Program-made: the position numbers and the translations under genes | The notes under the pieces: generated by a model | The model's input: only the letters and a program-made list of their open reading frames with translations | Databases searched by the model: none | Told to the model about the DNA's origin: nothing | Origin: Desulfobacteraceae bacterium | GTDB taxonomy: Bacteria; Desulfobacterota; Desulfobacteria; Desulfobacterales; SURF-7 | Length of the DNA: 55,431 bases | Direction of reading: 5' to 3' | Assembly (NCBI GenBank): GCA_003599865.1 | Contig: QZKS01000077.1 | Coordinates: 1-55,431 of the forward strand | Part shown: positions 28,705 through 37,302 of the stretch, in pieces | Numbering within the stretch: the stretch's first letter is position 1 | Layout of the letters: each line of letters begins with the position of its first letter

Positions 28705-29149
28705 TTAAACGCTGAGCCAGAGATGTGTGACGGTGATCGGACAGGCTTTACCGTTATCTTCAATCCAGTTGAAATCTCTATTGTGAGAGCATCCTGCATG
28801 GCCCAAGCGTAATCGCCATTCTTCCGATTTCTCCACCAAACCCGCACGGACCGGATTCAACTCCACATACCGGGTGCAGACAACCAGGTATCGTTCTTCC
28901 ATAATGAATGAAGAAAACCGCCCCAGCCACAAATGACCGCGCCAGCCTTCCCGAAAATTGATCCTCCGGGTTATACCGCCTGTGCGTTTCACCGATGGCG
29001 GCATTCAGCCCCTCCTTGGTCTCAGGGATAGCGATCAGGTGGACATGGTTCGGCATCAGACAATAGGCCCATATCTTGACATGGTATCTATCACACCGTT
29101 CGGCCATCAATTCCAGATAGGAAAGATAGTCTTCTTCAAAAAAAGCAGT
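28705..29149 (-). pseudogene. Broken REP-associated tyrosine transposase (RAYT, Y1_Tnp)
   Basis: On the minus strand the conserved transposase core is legible: AYCLMPNHVHLIAIP, which holds the HxH motif, then GETHRRY in one frame. The continuation TRRINFREGWRGHLW, ARYVELNPVRAGLV-like (here TRYVELNPVRAGLV) is in another frame. One extra base near 28971-28973 joins them. The N-terminus is missing: an in-frame TAA stands just upstream of AFFEEDYLSY, at the spot where the short repeat (29135-29158) lies. The C-terminus after EEWRLRLG is divergent. The gene is therefore dead. Such transposases move REP-like palindromes, compatible with 5818-5886 and 8842-8918. Confidence 0.85.
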
Positions 29150-29158
29150 GCCTTATCC
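29135..29158 (+). repeat. Short direct repeat, copy A
   Basis: TTCAAAAAAAGCAGTG then CCTTATCC matches copies B (30926-30949) and C (33987-34010). The copy lies in the dead transposase, and the sequence upstream does not carry the promoter-like part seen in B and C. It lies 17 bases before the first hip operator. Confidence 0.6.
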
Positions 29159-29174
29159 ATTCGGCGAAATAATG

Positions 29175-29287
29175 TTCCCGATCGGTAATTTTTATACTCA
29201 AAAGAGCCTATACAGCTAATTATATTACCGTTCGGTAATATTTTTCTTGACAAGCACTTCACGGCAGGATATATTCCCGATCGGTAA
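29175..29287 (+). promoter_or_regulatory. hipBA promoter with three operator-like dyads
   Basis: TTGACA (29247-29252), a 17-base spacer and TATATT (29270-29275) form a near-consensus sigma-70 promoter. TTCCCGATCGGTAA occurs at 29175-29188 and again at 29274-29287. Between them ATATTACCG-TT-CGGTAATAT (29222-29241) is a perfect 9-bp-arm dyad. Centres are 50 and 49 bp apart, about five helical turns. The last copy overlaps the -10 and ends one base before the hipB ATG. HipB homologs repress their own operon through such sites. That these are HipB sites is inferred from position and symmetry. Confidence 0.8.
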
Positions 29288-29288
29288 C

Positions 29289-29528
29289 ATGAATACAAGG
29301 AATCCAGAGCAGCTTGGCGCTACTATTCGCGCCAGGCGCAGACAGTTGAAAGTCACCCAAAAGGACTTGGCGTTGACCTGCGGGACGGGTCTGCGCTTCA
29401 TTATTGATCTTGAGAAGGGCAAGCCGACTTGCCAAATCGGAAAAATCCTGCAGGTTCTCCAGGCCCTGGGGCTAAAACTCCAGATTGTCAGCCCTGGCGT
29501 TGACACCGGTCAGGGCCAAAAATCATGA
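29289..29528 (+). CDS. hipB: HipB-like antitoxin/repressor
   Basis: The 79-residue protein is an XRE-type helix-turn-helix (LGATIRARRRQLKVTQKDLAL, CGTGLRFIIDLEKGKP, then QVLQALGLKLQIV), the HipB pattern. It pairs with HipA and represses the operon. The ATG at 29289 is chosen because the TATATT ends only 13 bases upstream and an earlier ATG at 29247 would lie inside the promoter. No ribosome-binding site is visible, so the transcript is probably leaderless or nearly so. The stop overlaps the hipA start as ATGA. Confidence 0.88.
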   Translation: MNTRNPEQLGATIRARRRQLKVTQKDLALTCGTGLRFIIDLEKGKPTCQIGKILQVLQALGLKLQIVSPGVDTGQGQKS

Positions 29529-30781
29529 ATAAACTGATCGTTTATCTGAACACCGAGAGAGTCGGAAGCCTCAAACAAGAAGATAGTGGCTTGCTGCAAT
29601 TCTCCTATGATCAGACATGGCTTGAAAAGCCGAATGCCATGCCGCTCTCCCGTTCGCTGCCACTCCGAAGCGAGGTGTTCCCGGGAAAAAAGACCAGGCC
29701 TTTCTTTGCCGGCATACTGCCTGAAGAGGGTCCACGAGAAAAGATAGCCGAGATCCTCGGGATCAGCCGCACCAATGACTTTGCAATGCTGGAGAGAATA
29801 GGCGGCGATTGCGCCGGTGCTGTCAGCTTGCTTCCTGAAGGCGTTGCGCCGACGTATCCAAAGAATGCCCGACATCTCGAACTGACCGAACCGGAGTTGC
29901 AACAACTCATCGCCAAATTACCTGATCGCCCCTTACTGGCCGGTGCGGAGGGACTGCGTCTCTCACTTGCCGGCGCGCAGGACAAACTACCTGTTATCGT
30001 TCATCAGAACGGGATCTGTCTCCCTCTTGGCGATATGCCCAGCACCCACATACTGAAACCGGAGCCGGATCGTTTTCCGGGACTGGCTGTCAACGAAATT
30101 TTCTGCATGACGCTGTCTCAGGCAGTCGGCTTGAACGCACCCGATACAGAATATCGTCCGATCGGAAGAAAACCGTGCATTCTGGTTCAAAGATATGACC
30201 GGACAAGCGATGAAACCGGCCATACAACCCGGCTCCACCAGGAGGACTTCTGCCAGGCTCTGGGATTTCCGCCGGAGCGAAAGTACCAGGCAGAAGGAGG
30301 CCCGACGATAGGCGACTGCATTTCCCTGCTTCGGGACTGGTCCACTGCGCCTGTTCTTGATATCCCCGACTTCATCAGCGGCCTGATTTTCAATGTGTTG
30401 ATCGGCAATGCCGATGCTCATGGCAAGAACCACGCGTTATTGTATTCCGGCGGCGAGCGACGATTATCTCCCTATTATGATCTTGTCTGCACGCTTGCCT
30501 GGCCTAACCTTTCCAGGAATCTCGCGATGAAGATCGGCGGCTGCGACTCAGTCAATGCCTTCACGATTGGTGACTGGAAGAAGATGGCGAAGAAGACCGG
30601 TCTGAATTGGCCAATGATACGGGAACGAATGGCGGAAAGTTGCCATCGTGTTCTGAACAAGCTCGGCGAGGTTCAGGCACGGACCGGAGAATACAACGAA
30701 TCCATAGCCACACTGCTTCATGAAACCATAAAGGGCCGAGCGGACAGAATGCTTGAAGCGCTTTCCAGGAAAGAGTACTAG
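29525..30781 (+). CDS. hipA: HipA-like serine/threonine kinase toxin
   Basis: HipA kinases phosphorylate targets such as glutamyl-tRNA synthetase and lower growth; some have other targets. The 418-residue protein has the N-terminal subdomain (MNKLIVYLNTERVGSL), the P-loop-like SLAGAQDKLPV, HILKPE, the catalytic NADAHGKNHALLY (Asp and Asn) and SPYYDLVCT (metal Asp). The length is near E. coli HipA (440). It overlaps hipB by four bases, so translation is coupled. All recognised catalytic residues are present, so it is probably active. The relation to the direct repeats on both sides is treated in the findings. Confidence 0.93.
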   Translation: MNKLIVYLNTERVGSLKQEDSGLLQFSYDQTWLEKPNAMPLSRSLPLRSEVFPGKKTRPFFAGILPEEGPREKIAEILGISRTNDFAMLERIGGDCAGAVSLLPEGVAPTYPKNARHLELTEPELQQLIAKLPDRPLLAGAEGLRLSLAGAQDKLPVIVHQNGICLPLGDMPSTHILKPEPDRFPGLAVNEIFCMTLSQAVGLNAPDTEYRPIGRKPCILVQRYDRTSDETGHTTRLHQEDFCQALGFPPERKYQAEGGPTIGDCISLLRDWSTAPVLDIPDFISGLIFNVLIGNADAHGKNHALLYSGGERRLSPYYDLVCTLAWPNLSRNLAMKIGGCDSVNAFTIGDWKKMAKKTGLNWPMIRERMAESCHRVLNKLGEVQARTGEYNESIATLLHETIKGRADRMLEALSRKEY

Positions 30782-30891
30782 CCCGCATATTTCATGAAAT
30801 TTTTCGACATAAAACGATGATCAATCCTTTAAACCGCTTACGACAGTTCGTATTTTTGAAAACGGTACCTATCGTATACAAAACAAAAACT

Positions 30892-30949
30892 GTTGACGCA
30901 GAATCAGCTTTCGCATATACTCTTTTTCAAAAAAAGCAAGGTCTTATCC
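30892..30949 (+). repeat. Direct repeat copy B with a sigma-70-like promoter
   Basis: This 58-base unit aligns without gaps to copy C (33953-34010) with about 12 differences. Its first part reads TTGACG (30893-30898), 17 bases, TATACT (30916-30921). The remaining 24 bases are the motif shared with copies A and C. The promoter points at the PocR-kinase, whose start is about 125 bases away. Confidence 0.75.
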
Positions 30950-31046
30950 TTTTTACCGCCAGCCGAAACATCCTGTTCAGTATTGTCGGACTTATTTTCA
31001 ATCATATTTCGCCTGATCTGTTCAGGCAATGCGGAACCATTGATAA

Positions 31047-33890
31047 ATGAGGGAAGAAATGGATAATTTGGGGCTTTCCGATCTGCTTGATCTGACCATC
31101 CTCCAGAAAATGGCGGATGCACATTACCGGGCAGCAGGCATGCCGATCGGCATCATAGATGCCATGGACGGCTCAGTCCTCGTCGGCTCCGGGTGGCAGG
31201 ATATTTGTGTCAAATTTCACCGCACTGATCCGGTTACGCTTCAGCGCTGCCGAGAGAGCGACAATTATATCAAGGATCACCTTGTCCAAGGCAAATCCTG
31301 CGCCTACAAATGCAAAAACGGCTTATGGGATATCGGCTTACCCATACTGGTGGCCGGACGCCATCTGGCCACCATGTTCCTCGGGCAGTTTTTTTATGAA
31401 GGAGAGACGCCGGATCGAGCCTTCTTCATCCAACAGGCCCATGATTTCGGGTTTGATGTTGATGCCTATCTTTCGGCCCTGGACAGGGTGCCGATCTTCA
31501 GCCGGGAAAAAGTCGATTCCATTCTTGAATATGATAAGGCATTGGTGGGCTTTATTGCTGATCTTGCAGCGCACGCGCTTTTAAAAACCAAGCTGGATGA
31601 GATCATCCGTGAAAGTGAACGAAAATTCCATGCTGTTTTTGATCAGGCTTACCAGTTTCTCGCGTTGTTATCCGTTGATGGTAAGGTGCTGGACGCAAAT
31701 AAAACCGTTTTGAGTTTTGGCGATGTCCATAAAGCAGATGTCATTGGCCTGCCTTTTTGGGAAACGCCCTGGTGGTCGCATTCTCCTGAATCACAGGAAA
31801 ATGTCCGCCTGGCAGTCCGGAAGGCTGCGAAAGGGGAACTGATGCGATTTGAAGCCCCTCACCCCGATTCTGAGGGGCATTTCCACTATGTTGATTTTTC
31901 TCTTAAACCGGTTAAAGATGACGCCGGCAAGGTGATCATGCTGATAGGGGAAGGCCGGGATATTACCGGGCGAAAGCAGGCAGAGGAAGAAATCAGGCGC
32001 CAGGCTGAATTCCTCCAGAGCCTGATCGATGCCATGCCTTACCCGGTCTTCTACAAGGACCTTCAGGGCCGGTATATAAGCTGCAATAAAGCCTTTGAGA
32101 AATTCTACGGAATTTTAAGAGAGCAGATTGCCGGCAAGACCGTATATGAGGTTGCCCCAAAGGAACTGGCCGACGAATACCACCGCACTGATGAAGCGCT
32201 TTTCAGGCATCCGGGAATGCAGATATACGAAGGATGTATCCAGTCAACCGACGGCGTCCGACACACCGTCATGTTCCATAAAGCCACATTTACCGGGCTG
32301 GATGGAGCTGTTGCCGGCCTTGTGGGCGCGGTCGTCGACATCACGGAACAAAAAGAGGCAGAAAAATCCTTACAAGAGAGCGAGGCCAAGACACGCGGCA
32401 TCCTGGACAATATCGGTATTGGGGTGGCCCTTATCAGCCCCGGAATGGAAATTCTCGAACTGAACCGCCGGATGCGCGAATGGTTCCCCGGTATTGAGCC
32501 GGGCCGGCACCCGATCTGTTACCGCTCCTTTAACGACCCGCCGCGCGAGGGGATGTGCGATTACTGTCCTACCTGCAAGACGCTGAAAGACGGTCTGGTA
32601 CACGAAGCCACCACGCAAACGCCCCAGTCGGGAGGGCTGCGCAATTACCGCATCATTTCCTCACCTATTTTTAATGCATCGGGTGAAGTTACAGCCGCCA
32701 TCGAGATGGTCGATGACATCACCGAAACACTTACCCTGGAATCCCGGCTGCGGCAGGCCCAGAAGCTGGAGTCTGTGGGCCGCCTGGCCGGAGGGGTGGC
32801 CCATGATTTCAACAATATGCTAAGCGTGATCCTGGGTCACACAGAACTGGCCATGGCCGATATGGATCCGGCCCAACCCCTCTTTTCCGCCCTTCAGGAA
32901 ATTCAGAAAGCTGCTGAACGCTCCGCTGATCTAACCCGTCAGCTTCTGGCCTTTGCCCGGAAACAGACGGTCACCCCCAGAATTCTCAACCTCAACGAAA
33001 CCGTGGAAGGAATGTTGCGGATGCTGCGGCGGTTGATCGGCGAGGACATCGACCTTGCATGGCTGCCGGGGAAAAACCTATGGCCGGTCAAGCTGGACCC
33101 TTCTCAGATTGACCAGATCCTGGTTAATCTGTGCATCAACGCCAGAGATGCCATCACGGGCGTGGGCAAGATTACCATTGAAATGAAAAATGAAACCTCG
33201 GATCAGGACTACTGCGACGATCATCCGGGATTTATTCCCGGTGATTTTGTCTTGATGGCGGTCAGTGACAACGGCCGCGGTATGGATAAGGATATCCTGG
33301 ACAATATATTCGAACCGTTTTTCACCACCAAAAAAGCCGGTCATGGTACCGGACTCGGACTGGCTACCGTCTACGGCATCGTAAAACAGAATAACGGCTT
33401 TATCAATGTTTATAGCGAACCCGGTCACGGGACGACCTTTAAGATCTATCTTCCCAGGCATGCAACCAAGTTTGAACAATTGCAAAAAGAGGAAAAACAG
33501 CGGACCATTTCGGTTGCCCAAGAGAACGAAACCATTCTCATAGTAGAAGATGAAACCGCTATCCTGGACATGACACGGCAAATGCTGGAAAAATTCGGGT
33601 ATCGGGTGCTGTCCGCCTCAACCCCGGATGAGGCCGCTCGTATGACTAAAGATTATACCGGAGCAATCCACTTGCTGATTGCCGATGTCATCATGCCAGG
33701 TATGAACGGCCGGGATCTGGCGGAAGCTATGATTTTACTCTATCCGGGACTCCGGTGCCTGTTCATGTCAGGCTATACTGCCAATGTCATTGCCCGTCAC
33801 GGCGTGCTGGACAAGGGCATCAATTTCATTCAAAAGCCGTTTTCGATACAGGCACTATCCATCAAGGTACGCGAAGTGCTGGACAGTTGA
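31047..33890 (+). CDS. PocR-PAS hybrid histidine kinase with receiver domain
   Basis: The 947-residue protein is a soluble hybrid kinase. Domains in order: PocR sensor (about 5-185, LSDLLDLTILQKMADAHYRA..), three PAS units (about 195-310, 325-440, 445-560), HisKA with phospho-His in GGVAHDFNNML (about residue 585), HATPase (NLCINARDA, DNGRGMD, GTGLGLATVYG) and a C-terminal receiver with its phospho-Asp in LLIADVIMPGMNG and a conserved Lys in QKPFS. PocR domains bind small organic ligands. No membrane segment is evident. A second ATG at 31059, with GAGG six bases upstream, is the better start by ribosome-binding site. It stands alone between direct repeats B and C; a cognate regulator is not adjacent. 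Confidence 0.88.
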   Translation: MREEMDNLGLSDLLDLTILQKMADAHYRAAGMPIGIIDAMDGSVLVGSGWQDICVKFHRTDPVTLQRCRESDNYIKDHLVQGKSCAYKCKNGLWDIGLPILVAGRHLATMFLGQFFYEGETPDRAFFIQQAHDFGFDVDAYLSALDRVPIFSREKVDSILEYDKALVGFIADLAAHALLKTKLDEIIRESERKFHAVFDQAYQFLALLSVDGKVLDANKTVLSFGDVHKADVIGLPFWETPWWSHSPESQENVRLAVRKAAKGELMRFEAPHPDSEGHFHYVDFSLKPVKDDAGKVIMLIGEGRDITGRKQAEEEIRRQAEFLQSLIDAMPYPVFYKDLQGRYISCNKAFEKFYGILREQIAGKTVYEVAPKELADEYHRTDEALFRHPGMQIYEGCIQSTDGVRHTVMFHKATFTGLDGAVAGLVGAVVDITEQKEAEKSLQESEAKTRGILDNIGIGVALISPGMEILELNRRMREWFPGIEPGRHPICYRSFNDPPREGMCDYCPTCKTLKDGLVHEATTQTPQSGGLRNYRIISSPIFNASGEVTAAIEMVDDITETLTLESRLRQAQKLESVGRLAGGVAHDFNNMLSVILGHTELAMADMDPAQPLFSALQEIQKAAERSADLTRQLLAFARKQTVTPRILNLNETVEGMLRMLRRLIGEDIDLAWLPGKNLWPVKLDPSQIDQILVNLCINARDAITGVGKITIEMKNETSDQDYCDDHPGFIPGDFVLMAVSDNGRGMDKDILDNIFEPFFTTKKAGHGTGLGLATVYGIVKQNNGFINVYSEPGHGTTFKIYLPRHATKFEQLQKEEKQRTISVAQENETILIVEDETAILDMTRQMLEKFGYRVLSASTPDEAARMTKDYTGAIHLLIADVIMPGMNGRDLAEAMILLYPGLRCLFMSGYTANVIARHGVLDKGINFIQKPFSIQALSIKVREVLDS

Positions 33891-33952
33891 CCGTAAGTGA
33901 GCTTGATTTTCGTTCCACAAAACCTATCAAAGTTTGAAAATTTAGCGGATGG

Positions 33953-34010
33953 GTTGACGCACAATCGACCTGCGTATATATTGTTCTTTAAAAAAAGCAA
34001 TGGCTTATCC
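33953..34010 (+). repeat. Direct repeat copy C with a sigma-70-like promoter
   Basis: Same 58-base unit as copy B: TTGACG (33954-33959), 17 bases, TATATT (33977-33982), then the 24-base shared motif. It lies between the kinase gene and a convergent sensor-kinase gene, so transcription from it would run into that gene's antisense strand. Confidence 0.75.
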
Positions 34011-34058
34011 AATATTTAGCAATATTTTCCATTTTGCATCCTTTCCAGAATATGAGGC

Positions 34059-37000
34059 CTATGTCCTCTTTTCTTTCCGCCGGTCCATATTGGGAATAAT
34101 TACGCGAAAAATGCTGAATTCTCCCGCTTTGCTCTCCACCTCGATGCGACCCCCCAACCCCATAACCAGGTCATGGCAGACATACAACCCCAGCCCCGTT
34201 CCCTCGACCGGCGGTTTCGTGGAAAAAAAGGGATCAAAAATATTATTCATATTTTTTTCATCGATGCCGCAACCATTGTCCTGCACTTCGATAATGGTAT
34301 GATCCAGCCAGGTGCGACCGATGGCGGCGCTCAGTCTTATCCAGGAATCCTCTTTATCCGCTGCCTGGGCGGCATTAATCAACAGGTTGATCAATATCTG
34401 CTCCAGTGCGATGGGATCGGCGTGGATCCGTGGAAAATCCGCCGGGATATTCACCGTAAAGGATTTAACCGTTTTTTTGACTTTTGCGCGACAAATGGAA
34501 AGAGCCTTTTCCGCCACGGTTGTCAAGTCGACCTGTTTTCCATTGCCTTTATATTGGGTCCGGGAGAACTCCTTCAGGCTGGAAACGATAGCGCCGATTC
34601 GTTCCGAACCGTGCTCAATATTGCCGATCAGCCTGAAAATATCCATGCGGAAATCCGAGTAGGACATGTTGAATAATTCCAATTCAGGATTCGCCTTGCT
34701 GTCATCATCGATCATCCCGATCAATTGTTCGATATATTCCTTCAGGATGGGAGTATTGAAAGTGATAAACGCGTTGGGATTGTTGATTTCATGGACGATG
34801 CTGGACACCAGAACACCCAGAGAGGCCAGCTTCTCGTTTTGAATCATTCGTTTTTCAAAAATCTTTCGCTCGGTGATGTCGTTGATTCGATAGATGATCT
34901 CGGCCGGTTCGCCATTTTTTTGATATATAGGGTAGATAAACACCTTTTCGTCCCGGAGGGGGTCCATGAAACCTTTCCGTTCGAAATTCATGTCCTCGGT
35001 TTTAAAAACCGCCGCCTGAATTCGGCAGCCCTTGCAAAGATTCGATTCGTCCTTGAAAGCCTTGTAACAGAATTCGCCGATGATTTCCCGCGTCTCCGTC
35101 AAACCGAAATACGCGATCGCGCTTTTGTTCAGCACCTTCACCCGCATATCCTTGTCCAACAACACCAGGGGGTCCGAGATCCCATCAAAAACCGCCTGAA
35201 GCATTTCCTTGCTTTTCCGCATCCTCGCTTCGGCTTGGTGACGCTCTTCGATTTCCCGCGAGAGTTGTTCGTTGGAAAGAGTCAGGGCCTGAGTGCGCTC
35301 CAGCACCCGTTGCTCCAATTTATCATGGGCTTCTTGCAGTTTTTTTTCATTTGTCGTCAGGGCCGAGAGGGTTCTTGAATTTCGCAAGGATACGGCCGTG
35401 AGTTCCGCAAAAGCGGAAACTTGACGAACATCCTCGTCGGTGAACCCGCCCGGTTTATTGGAAACCCCTAAAATGCCGAGGACTTGGTTATCGAGCTGGA
35501 TGGGTGCGAACAGGACGTTGTCCAAACGGACATGGTTTTTGGGAAGGTATTTAACCCAATGACTTACCGAAAAATCATTTTCGTAAACGGTTTTTTTGAG
35601 ACTATATGCCTGTTCCCGCAATCCCCGGATGGGCATGGGCAGCTCCGGATCAACCCCGCAGGGCAGGCCGCCGGATTCCAGAAACAGGACTTCATTCTCC
35701 ATGCCGTCCGCGGATAAGATCGCGACATACCCCGCCTTGGCATTGATGAGGGAGCGGCAGATGTCGAAGATCCGTCGGGCTGCTTTCGTGAAATCGGTAT
35801 GATTGAGAACCGCCTTGGAGCCTTCCAGCAAAGCGGATACTTCCTCGGACCAGCGCCGGGATCGGCTCAATGCATTTCGGAGATTTTCCTCCGCCGCGCG
35901 TTCCTGGGTCTGGTCGCGGAAGACCAGTACGACGCCGATGATTGCGTCCTGATCATCGCAGATGGGCGCGCCGCTGTCGGCAATGGGGCGCTCACTTCCA
36001 TCCAAGGCGACAAGCAGGGTATGGTTGGCCAGATTCACCACCTCTCCTTCCCGCAGGACGCGGTGCACGGGATTCTCCACTTTAATACGGGTCTTCTCGT
36101 TGATGATCGGAAATACGTCATCAATAAATTTTCCGCAGGCGGTGCTTTCCGACCAGCCGGTGAGTTCCTCGGCCACCCGGTTCATCTGCCTAACCCGGCC
36201 CTCCTTGTCCGTGGTGATGACCCCGTCGCCGATGCTGTAAAGAGTGATCCGGAACTCCTCCAGGGTATCGCTGCGTTTCCGCTCCGTCCGGAACAGTTCC
36301 CGGTAAAGGGCGGCCTGGCGTTGCCGATGGCCATACGCATTGATCACAACTGCAAAAACGACGAAGAGAATCACGAAGACGAGGGTGACCCATCCCCGGT
36401 AACGCGCCTCGGCCAGGATTTCCCGGGTGTCCACCTTGACCACCATGAACCAACGCGAGCCGGGAACCGGGCGCAGGTCGGCCAGCACCTTTTCGCTGCG
36501 GTAGTCATTTCCTTCGAACCGCCCCTGCTTGCCCAGCACCGCCTGTACGGCCGGAATATCGGTGCGGGTGAGCGGGTAGGTCAGACTAAGGGCGCTCGCG
36601 GGTCGGTGACGGAGCTCGTTCAGAAAAAGCACGTTCCTGCCCTCCCTGCGCACCAGCAGCGACTCGGCCGTTTGGCTAGGAATGGGCCATGAACGAATCA
36701 AGGGATACAGTAAATCATCCATTCTGCTTCGCAGTACCAACACGACCACGGGGCCGCCTGCAAGGTTCGGCACCGGTGACAGGGTATCAAGATAGGCCTC
36801 GCCGTTCGGGCCCCGAAAACATTCACCCAGCAAGGCCTTGCCTTCGGCAACGGCTTTTTCCAGCTCTTCCGTTATGGGAGGGATTGAATGTTCTTCTTCC
36901 GGTCGACTCGAAATCAGAATGTGGCCGTTCAAGTCGCATAACAGCACTTCGGCATAGAGATGCTCTTTTTCCACCAGGTTCAAGCGAGCTTGTAAATCCG

Positions 37001-37280
37001 CCTGCATATCCCGGACGAACGGATTACCGAGCCAATCCGTCACCGCTTTTTGAAAATAAGGGCTTTTCGTCATCAAGCGGGCATCGGCAAGGCGTTCCCA
37101 TCGCCATTGCCGGATTTGCCCGACTTTGAGTTCGGCGACAGCGGCGATTTCCTGATATTTCCGGTCCCGAATATAGCCGGCTTCATACCGATAATAAGCC
37201 AATCCACCGGTTATAATCCCCAAAACGATCAGGAGCATCCAAAACCAGTTGCGGATGTTTGTAGTACCCGCTTTTTTCAT
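34059..37280 (-). CDS. Membrane sensor histidine kinase with Cache-like, PAS and GAF domains
   Basis: The 1073-residue protein has a membrane helix at about 10-28, an extracytoplasmic sensor loop of about 270 residues (double-Cache-like), a second helix at about 297-316, a PAS domain (about 335-455, ITLYSIGDGVITTDKEG), a GAF domain (about 480-650), a coiled coil (about 655-715), a second PAS with CYKAF and CKGC cysteines, then HisKA with phospho-His in SSIVHEINNPNAF and an HATPase (DNGCGID, GTGLGLYVC). The start is ATG 37280 because AAGGTGGG stands upstream; GTG at 37289 is possible. It ends 23 bases from nothing obvious upstream except aceK, which it follows on the same strand (22-base gap), so co-transcription with aceK is likely. 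No receiver gene is adjacent. Confidence 0.9.
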   Translation of the reverse strand: MKKAGTTNIRNWFWMLLIVLGIITGGLAYYRYEAGYIRDRKYQEIAAVAELKVGQIRQWRWERLADARLMTKSPYFQKAVTDWLGNPFVRDMQADLQARLNLVEKEHLYAEVLLCDLNGHILISSRPEEEHSIPPITEELEKAVAEGKALLGECFRGPNGEAYLDTLSPVPNLAGGPVVVLVLRSRMDDLLYPLIRSWPIPSQTAESLLVRREGRNVLFLNELRHRPASALSLTYPLTRTDIPAVQAVLGKQGRFEGNDYRSEKVLADLRPVPGSRWFMVVKVDTREILAEARYRGWVTLVFVILFVVFAVVINAYGHRQRQAALYRELFRTERKRSDTLEEFRITLYSIGDGVITTDKEGRVRQMNRVAEELTGWSESTACGKFIDDVFPIINEKTRIKVENPVHRVLREGEVVNLANHTLLVALDGSERPIADSGAPICDDQDAIIGVVLVFRDQTQERAAEENLRNALSRSRRWSEEVSALLEGSKAVLNHTDFTKAARRIFDICRSLINAKAGYVAILSADGMENEVLFLESGGLPCGVDPELPMPIRGLREQAYSLKKTVYENDFSVSHWVKYLPKNHVRLDNVLFAPIQLDNQVLGILGVSNKPGGFTDEDVRQVSAFAELTAVSLRNSRTLSALTTNEKKLQEAHDKLEQRVLERTQALTLSNEQLSREIEERHQAEARMRKSKEMLQAVFDGISDPLVLLDKDMRVKVLNKSAIAYFGLTETREIIGEFCYKAFKDESNLCKGCRIQAAVFKTEDMNFERKGFMDPLRDEKVFIYPIYQKNGEPAEIIYRINDITERKIFEKRMIQNEKLASLGVLVSSIVHEINNPNAFITFNTPILKEYIEQLIGMIDDDSKANPELELFNMSYSDFRMDIFRLIGNIEHGSERIGAIVSSLKEFSRTQYKGNGKQVDLTTVAEKALSICRAKVKKTVKSFTVNIPADFPRIHADPIALEQILINLLINAAQAADKEDSWIRLSAAIGRTWLDHTIIEVQDNGCGIDEKNMNNIFDPFFSTKPPVEGTGLGLYVCHDLVMGLGGRIEVESKAGEFSIFRVIIPNMDRRKEKRT

Positions 37281-37302
37281 ATGTCCCACCTTTTTTCAAG
37301 AA

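Follow-up and report, generated by a model that had tools for sequence, protein, structure and literature searches.

Short repeats in a Desulfobacteraceae genome as probable solo origin ends of an IS91-family transposon

Introduction

Three direct repeats, A, B and C, are located in a 55,431-nt stretch of DNA from a Desulfobacteraceae bacterium (contig QZKS01000077.1 of assembly GCA_003599865.1, contig C33 in the labels used here for this genome), which is referred to as the window. Repeats B and C are very probably solo copies of the 3′ (origin, oriIS-like) end of an IS91-family rolling-circle transposon, and A is probably a scrap of about 21 bp of such an end. An initial annotation placed the repeats around a hipBA pair and a PocR hybrid histidine kinase, read them as a modular array of mobilised cassettes, and left their shared core unexplained. 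Judged from DNA and protein comparisons, the core is most likely the terminus of an IS91-family origin end, and the repeats are more likely to be promoters dispersed over the genome, and possibly reused, than to mark the edges of an array of gene cassettes.

A genome-wide repeat family

The coordinates and shared orientation first described for A, B and C were borne out. B (30892-30949) and C (33953-34010) are identical at 46 of 58 positions in an ungapped alignment, and their flanks agree at chance level, with 16/60 identical bases upstream and 17/60 downstream. A (29135-29158) had been described as a 24-base match; 21 of its 24 bases agree with the last 24 bases of each of B and C, but the part upstream of 29138 is probably sequence of a neighbouring transposase gene (see below). 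The core pattern, allowing up to three mismatches, is found four times in the window, and the exact matches are A, B and C only, compared with a mean of 0.24 matches and a maximum of 3 in 100 shuffled controls.

A full copy features, in order, TTGACRCACAA, a 17-bp spacer, TATAnT, a pyrimidine-rich stretch, A6-7, GCA, four variable bases and CTTATCC, and the stretch upstream of TTGACRCACAA is often of the ACATRTYGCRTA type. The first elements make up a predicted near-consensus sigma-70 promoter (TTGACR-17-TATAnT), and the fixed end A6-7-GCA-N4-CTTATCC comes after it. From the spacing, transcription would be expected to start at the A-tract, so that the core would form the first transcribed bases.

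The genome that contains the window (5.0 Mb, 100 contigs) was searched for the core with up to two mismatches, which gave 19 forward and 16 reverse matches, compared with 3 and 5 for a reversed control. Although no promoter was part of the search pattern, TTGACR was present together with an AT-rich -10 element at a similar place in 14 of the 18 matches with at most one mismatch; the four without them are A, L009, L012 and L013. A sequence-only model, R1, was built from 16 aligned rows, namely the 14 promoter-bearing matches and the two-mismatch matches L020 and L024, and excludes the other fifteen two-mismatch matches and the four promoter-less ones. R1 finds 52 matches in this genome at E ≤ 1, of which 16 fall below 1.5e-11; these 16 are its training copies and match by construction, and the other 36 are weaker. 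Both B (30889-30952, forward strand, 68.7 bits, E 1.9e-18) and C (33952-34012, forward strand, 61 bits, E 4.7e-16) are training sequences. B carries a -35 element TTGACG at 30893-30898, a -10 element TATACT at 30916-30921 and the terminus CTTATCC at 30943-30949, and C carries TTGACG at 33954-33959 and TATATT at 33977-33982, with a promoter match of 10/12 in each.

At E ≤ 0.01, R1 gave 53, 54 and 36 matches in three congeneric genomes (G001-G003). Matches were found in 23 of the 40 genomes searched and, in an order-wide search under stricter filters (E ≤ 1e-4), in 69 of 291, the genome of the window being included in both counts. Copies that agree in all of their first 60 bases were counted as one; a further 65 places were selected in G001-G003 and 60 fetched, the last 5 being left out. 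The comparison with the unit's own and related genomes, which had been suggested as a check, revealed a genome-wide family whose copies are dispersed on many contigs beside unrelated genes.

Link to IS91-type transposons

Many of the copies in G001 and G002 form the 3′ portion of longer repeats, which have a common 3′ end and 5′ boundaries ranging from about -50 to -375, and the longest of these repeats extend into the C-terminus of an IS91-type transposase. Y2_Tnp matches lie directly upstream of the elements at G002:C53 and C152. Additionally, the genome of the window has a Y2_Tnp fragment at C8:100508-100801, about 105 bp upstream of the element at C8:100339-100402. A search with the transposase of this clade gave 41 loci in named genomes and matches in 56 of the 291 genomes of the order. 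In intact transposase genes, TTGAC is located 167-183 bp past the stop codon (7 loci) and the core about 200-260 bp past it, and such transposase-linked ends are present, for example, in Smithella, Desulfobacterales CG23 and Desulforudis. The terminus AAAAAGSRA-N3/4-CTTATC is common to B, C and intact elements; upstream of it, B and C have diverged.

The transposases of L183 and L218 match both Y2_Tnp and Zn_Tnp_IS91 above the Pfam cut-offs, which identifies them as HUH/Y2 enzymes with an N-terminal zinc domain, and they score 175.5 and 164.7 bits against NCBIfam transpos_IS91, for which the cut-off is 125. L183 (Smithella) and L185 (Syntrophaceae) contain a common 1693-bp element with 94% identity. 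The match of L183 to L182 and its match to L207 end at one same base, CTTATCAA. Inspection of 43 transposase rows located the core within 700 bp in 11, with the promoter in 7 of those. Nineteen rows were eligible for a closer count, with at least 50% identity, the C-terminus reached and 300 bp of downstream DNA, cut-offs that were fixed after the rows had been viewed; the end is present in nine of them by pattern, in L222 by eye and in L201 by alignment. In rows at ≤43% identity and otherwise under the same conditions the end was found in 0 of 8. L207 has the end, though its best row is at 39% identity and does not reach the C-terminus. Element and transposase occur together in 28 genomes (69 with the element and 56 with the transposase among 291; Fisher p 1.2e-6, uncorrected for kinship).

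The promoters of the transposase genes (L183:1154-1267, L185:2446-2559 and L182:22-106) feature a GAACGYACGTTC palindrome between -35 and -10. This palindrome resembles the GAAC-N4-GTTC LexA box of some bacteria. LexA is reported in a 2026 paper to control ISCR transposases through another type of box (PMC13393415).

The proposed parent is a clade of transposons of Desulfobacterales and other anaerobes, whose end would consist of the fixed terminus A6-7-GCA-N4-CTTATC(C), preceded in many but not all members by an outward sigma-70 promoter. The transposase would nick at or near this terminus. Solo ends could then arise by one-ended transposition, in which the origin is fixed and the other boundary varies, or by loss of the remaining element, and a promoter once in place could drive the next gene. 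The fixed 3′ and variable 5′ boundaries agree with one-ended or rolling-circle transposition and also with decay. On a less likely reading, the 66-90-bp origin end has turned into a self-standing micro-element that is copied in trans, has carried its near-consensus promoter through the genomes of this genus in about 16 to 50 copies, and forms a domesticated promoter set before many unrelated genes.

Several results weigh against an origin in IS91-type ends. The core stands without a promoter at that place in 4 of the 11 pattern matches near transposase genes, no such end was detected by pattern, eye or alignment in 8 of the 19 eligible rows, and the alignment of L183 with L201 runs past the proposed end. 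No transposase match was found in 41 of the 69 element-bearing genomes, and Y2_Tnp has no match on contig C33; the whole genome holds one remnant of the transposase clade and 16 strong copies of the element. No stable hairpin was found in B or C. Six of the 16 copies in this genome face a convergent gene. Additionally, no clean empty site was found when the window and loci L093, L089, L098 and L041 were compared with relatives and the fetched loci were compared with one another; in the window and empty-site searches the first 40 candidates per genome were scored (32 for G003 in one search).

At the miaB locus the similarity to relatives begins about 30 bp past the end, and at the glpK locus it ends at the stop codon, where G001 has a different neighbour. 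IS91-family elements insert beside a target tetranucleotide and make no target duplication; in the present family CTTATC could be either a target or a terminus. A TATC-rich motif is present within the first 30 bp past the end in 15 of 64 copies, compared with 2 to 9 of 64 in eight control windows, a weak signal that is no more than suggestive. Past the element end at L181:5246-5350, L222 and L218 the terminal bases recur as imperfect tandem repeats (of the TTATCC or TTATCAAT type).

Position of the copies and predicted promoter use

Using mechanical gene calls, 89 copies were classified, 16 from the genome of the window and 73 from G001-G003, with the same locus in two species counted twice. 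Eleven overlap an open frame and 3 lie too close to a contig end to be classified. A same-strand gene follows 59 of the 75 classifiable copies, within 200 bp in 48 of those, and the remaining 16 face a convergent gene. Among the convergent copies (e.g., L002, L010, L011, L106, L120 and L134), nine stop no more than 10 bp from the stop codon of the facing gene, as if the insertion had provided or adjoined the stop; L156 and L158 represent a single locus found in two species.

In twelve positional pairs (L111 occurs in two) the -35 element is identical at 71/72 positions, the -10 element at 65/72 and the core at 146/168, and the surroundings at 532/744 upstream and 638/780 downstream. Because copies found by R1 are biased toward the promoter that R1 rewards, this conservation is support and not proof. 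From their sequence and position, many copies may act as promoters, and B, which lies 94 bp upstream of the PocR kinase gene, may drive it; C has no close same-strand gene and is probably idle or read as antisense.

These counts also bear on an alternative in which the family is a host regulon, consisting of a sigma-70 promoter with a transcription-factor site or an RNA element in the first 20 transcribed bases, and the IS91-type transposon has merely captured a copy. The frequent same-strand gene within 200 bp and the presence of several copies at the same locus in different species would be expected from it. However, 16 of 75 copies face a convergent gene, IS91-type elements of Smithella, Desulforudis and other lineages terminate in the same end, only the 3′ boundary is fixed and the 5′ one varies, and no Rfam family matched, so that a host regulon is improbable. 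Two outcomes had been named in the initial annotation as speaking against its own reading: that the unit occurs only as a promoter before unrelated core genes, or that its identity is confined to promoter elements. The former describes the 59 copies that precede a same-strand gene but not the 16 that do not, and the latter is contradicted by a conserved end that lies outside the hexamers and is common to complete transposons.

Folding and database searches covered the structured candidates. The statement that the repeats are not attC-like holds: neither B (z -0.54 and -1.13) nor C (z 0.10 and -0.05) has a stable fold. An attC-type site was rejected on this basis, only L182 among 8 folds reaching z -2.09, in an analysis that did not include a search for an integron integrase. 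A riboswitch or structured leader was also rejected, since Rfam gave no match in the window and only a tRNA in L013 among 17 element loci, and B and C have no folding signal.

Copy A and the RAYT remnant

Upstream of A lies the frame of a RAYT (REP-associated, Y1) transposase remnant that has lost its 5′ part (28778-29110, reverse strand). It scores 22.8 bits against Y1_Tnp, just below the cut-off of 23, and 19.9 bits against NCBIfam REP_Tyr_transpos, well below the cut-off of 80. The similarity to the DNA of relatives (81% for G001:C34 and 85% for G002:C85) extends to 29138, the first A of the core in A, and the stretch of G001:C34 that resembles the upstream side of A reads like a RAYT gene. 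The upstream part of the match in A is therefore probably RAYT sequence, and the element-derived part is about 29138-29158 (forward strand), where an exact core, A7-GCA-N4-CTTATCC, stands without a -35 element. R1 matches A at 29126-29160 (model positions 30-64 of 66, 29.9 bits, E 2.5e-6 genome-wide).

A probably represents some 21 bp left from a transposon end at the breakpoint of the truncated RAYT gene. It is less likely, although a real possibility, that A is a chance match within a diverged RAYT gene and has no kinship to B and C, as the RAYT genes here encode an FFxEDY-like stretch that gives a TAGTCTTCTTC-A-rich sequence on this strand, so that part of the match is expected. The GCA and CTTATCC of A are, however, exact and lie beyond the place where the RAYT similarity ends, and the E value of the R1 match is low, though the RAYT stretch supplies part of its score. 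A second core-only copy of 25 bp, L009 (G000:C36:44263-44287), is located beside sequence that by eye resembles the C-terminus of an IS91-type transposase.

The element was also considered as a REP or REPIN unit of the adjacent RAYT gene and rejected, since by eye it has no REP-type palindrome. At L099 a REPIN-like palindromic insertion of about 140 bp was observed, which occupies the interval from about 150 to 14 bp before the element and is absent at the same place in G001.

Neighbouring genes and the cassette reading

The hipB-like antitoxin gene (29292-29528, forward strand, start codon inferred) matches HTH_3 with 26.4 bits (cut-off 23) and is followed by the hipA-like toxin gene (29525-30781, forward strand), which matches HipA_C, Couple_hipA and NCBIfam couple_hipA. 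A promoter-like site, TTGACA-17-TATATT, at 29247-29275 (forward strand) is the putative promoter of the pair. Palindromes of the TTACCGNNCGGTAA type are present at 29175-29188, 29225-29238 and 29274-29287, around this site. With one mismatch allowed, the pattern has 7 strand matches in the window, six of them at these palindromes, compared with 0.93 expected. The three palindromes are probable operators of hipBA.

The PocR-PAS hybrid histidine kinase (31047-33890, forward strand) features Pfam PocR, PAS, HisKA, HATPase_c and Response_reg domains. Beyond C lies a GAF-PAS histidine kinase identified with Pfam (34059-37289, reverse strand), whose 3′ end points toward C and whose stop codon is 45 bp from it. 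The similarity of relatives to this kinase gene begins at 34056-34059, at its stop codon. The closest DNA match to the kinase in each of G001, G002 and G003 is followed by what by eye is a response-regulator-like gene, and no such gene follows it in G006 or in the window. The lack of this gene in the window marks C as a likely rearrangement point.

The derivation of the repeats from a mobile element, as first suspected, has been traced to what are probably IS91-type transposon ends; the units proposed around them fared differently. In the modular array, A with hipBA and B, and B with the kinase and C, each gene and the repeat that follows it would be mobilised by recombination or by rolling-circle capture at the repeats. 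In favour of the array, rolling-circle replication from the origin end would carry upstream DNA, one comparison of G001 with G002 shows a gene-containing stretch of 1424 bp directly upstream of an end where the other genome has 8 bp, and among the first 40 candidates scored per genome G001, G002, G003 and G006 gave no DNA match to hipBA. Deletion accounts equally well for the 1424-bp difference. Against the array, A amounts to no more than a scrap, hipBA is preceded by a promoter-like site and three palindromes of its own, C is directed at the 3′ end of a convergent gene, and further copies of the element stand next to unrelated genes on a large number of contigs. No second hipBA or kinase unit bounded by such ends was seen, and no evidence was found that hipBA or the kinase had moved as a cassette. 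The array is thus very unlikely, and B and C are better read as solo transposon ends.

Comparison with known systems

With this assignment a repeated promoter family gains a source. In the genome of the window the transposon origin ends far outnumber the transposase, and 59 of the 75 classifiable copies stand where a promoter could be useful. Should this be confirmed, one group of sulphate reducers would offer a setting in which to test whether transposon ends are reused as promoters. Such repeats can also be mistaken for cassette borders or riboswitch-like leaders. Literature searches on the core string, on IS91 with Desulfobacter and on mobile promoters with IS91 did not turn up this element family.

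Mobile promoters in prokaryotes have reportedly been described by van Passel, Nijveen and colleagues, as cited in PMC9208149. The present family resembles them in consisting of promoter-sized repeats before unrelated genes, and differs in that its source can be named, an IS91-type transposon end. Integron attC arrays also place short repeats between unrelated genes; the present repeats, in contrast, have no stable fold, contain an internal sigma-70 promoter and are spread over many contigs rather than in one array.

IS91-family transposition begins at the right end and can terminate at other ter-like sites, which yields one-ended fragments (PMC3189936). The same paper describes fragments of IS801 from Pseudomonas syringae whose right end is fixed and whose left end varies, as here, and judges most natural IS801 fragments to be rearrangements. 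The IS801 fragments obtained in the transposition assay measured 229, 360 and 679 nt (PMC3189936), whereas the conserved part of the present element is shorter, older and of higher copy number, and no target tetranucleotide has been established for it. ISCR1, which is IS91-related, has functional outward sigma-70 promoters at its oriIS end that raise the expression of the next gene (PMC6218425). There two promoters of weak consensus lie within a region of 232 bp, and the element is complete and neighbours resistance genes (PMC6218425), whereas here one near-consensus promoter is present in solo ends of 66-90 bp without a transposase. The parts are therefore already known, outward promoters from ISCR1 and one-ended fragments from IS801, and the high-copy solo-end form is the variant.

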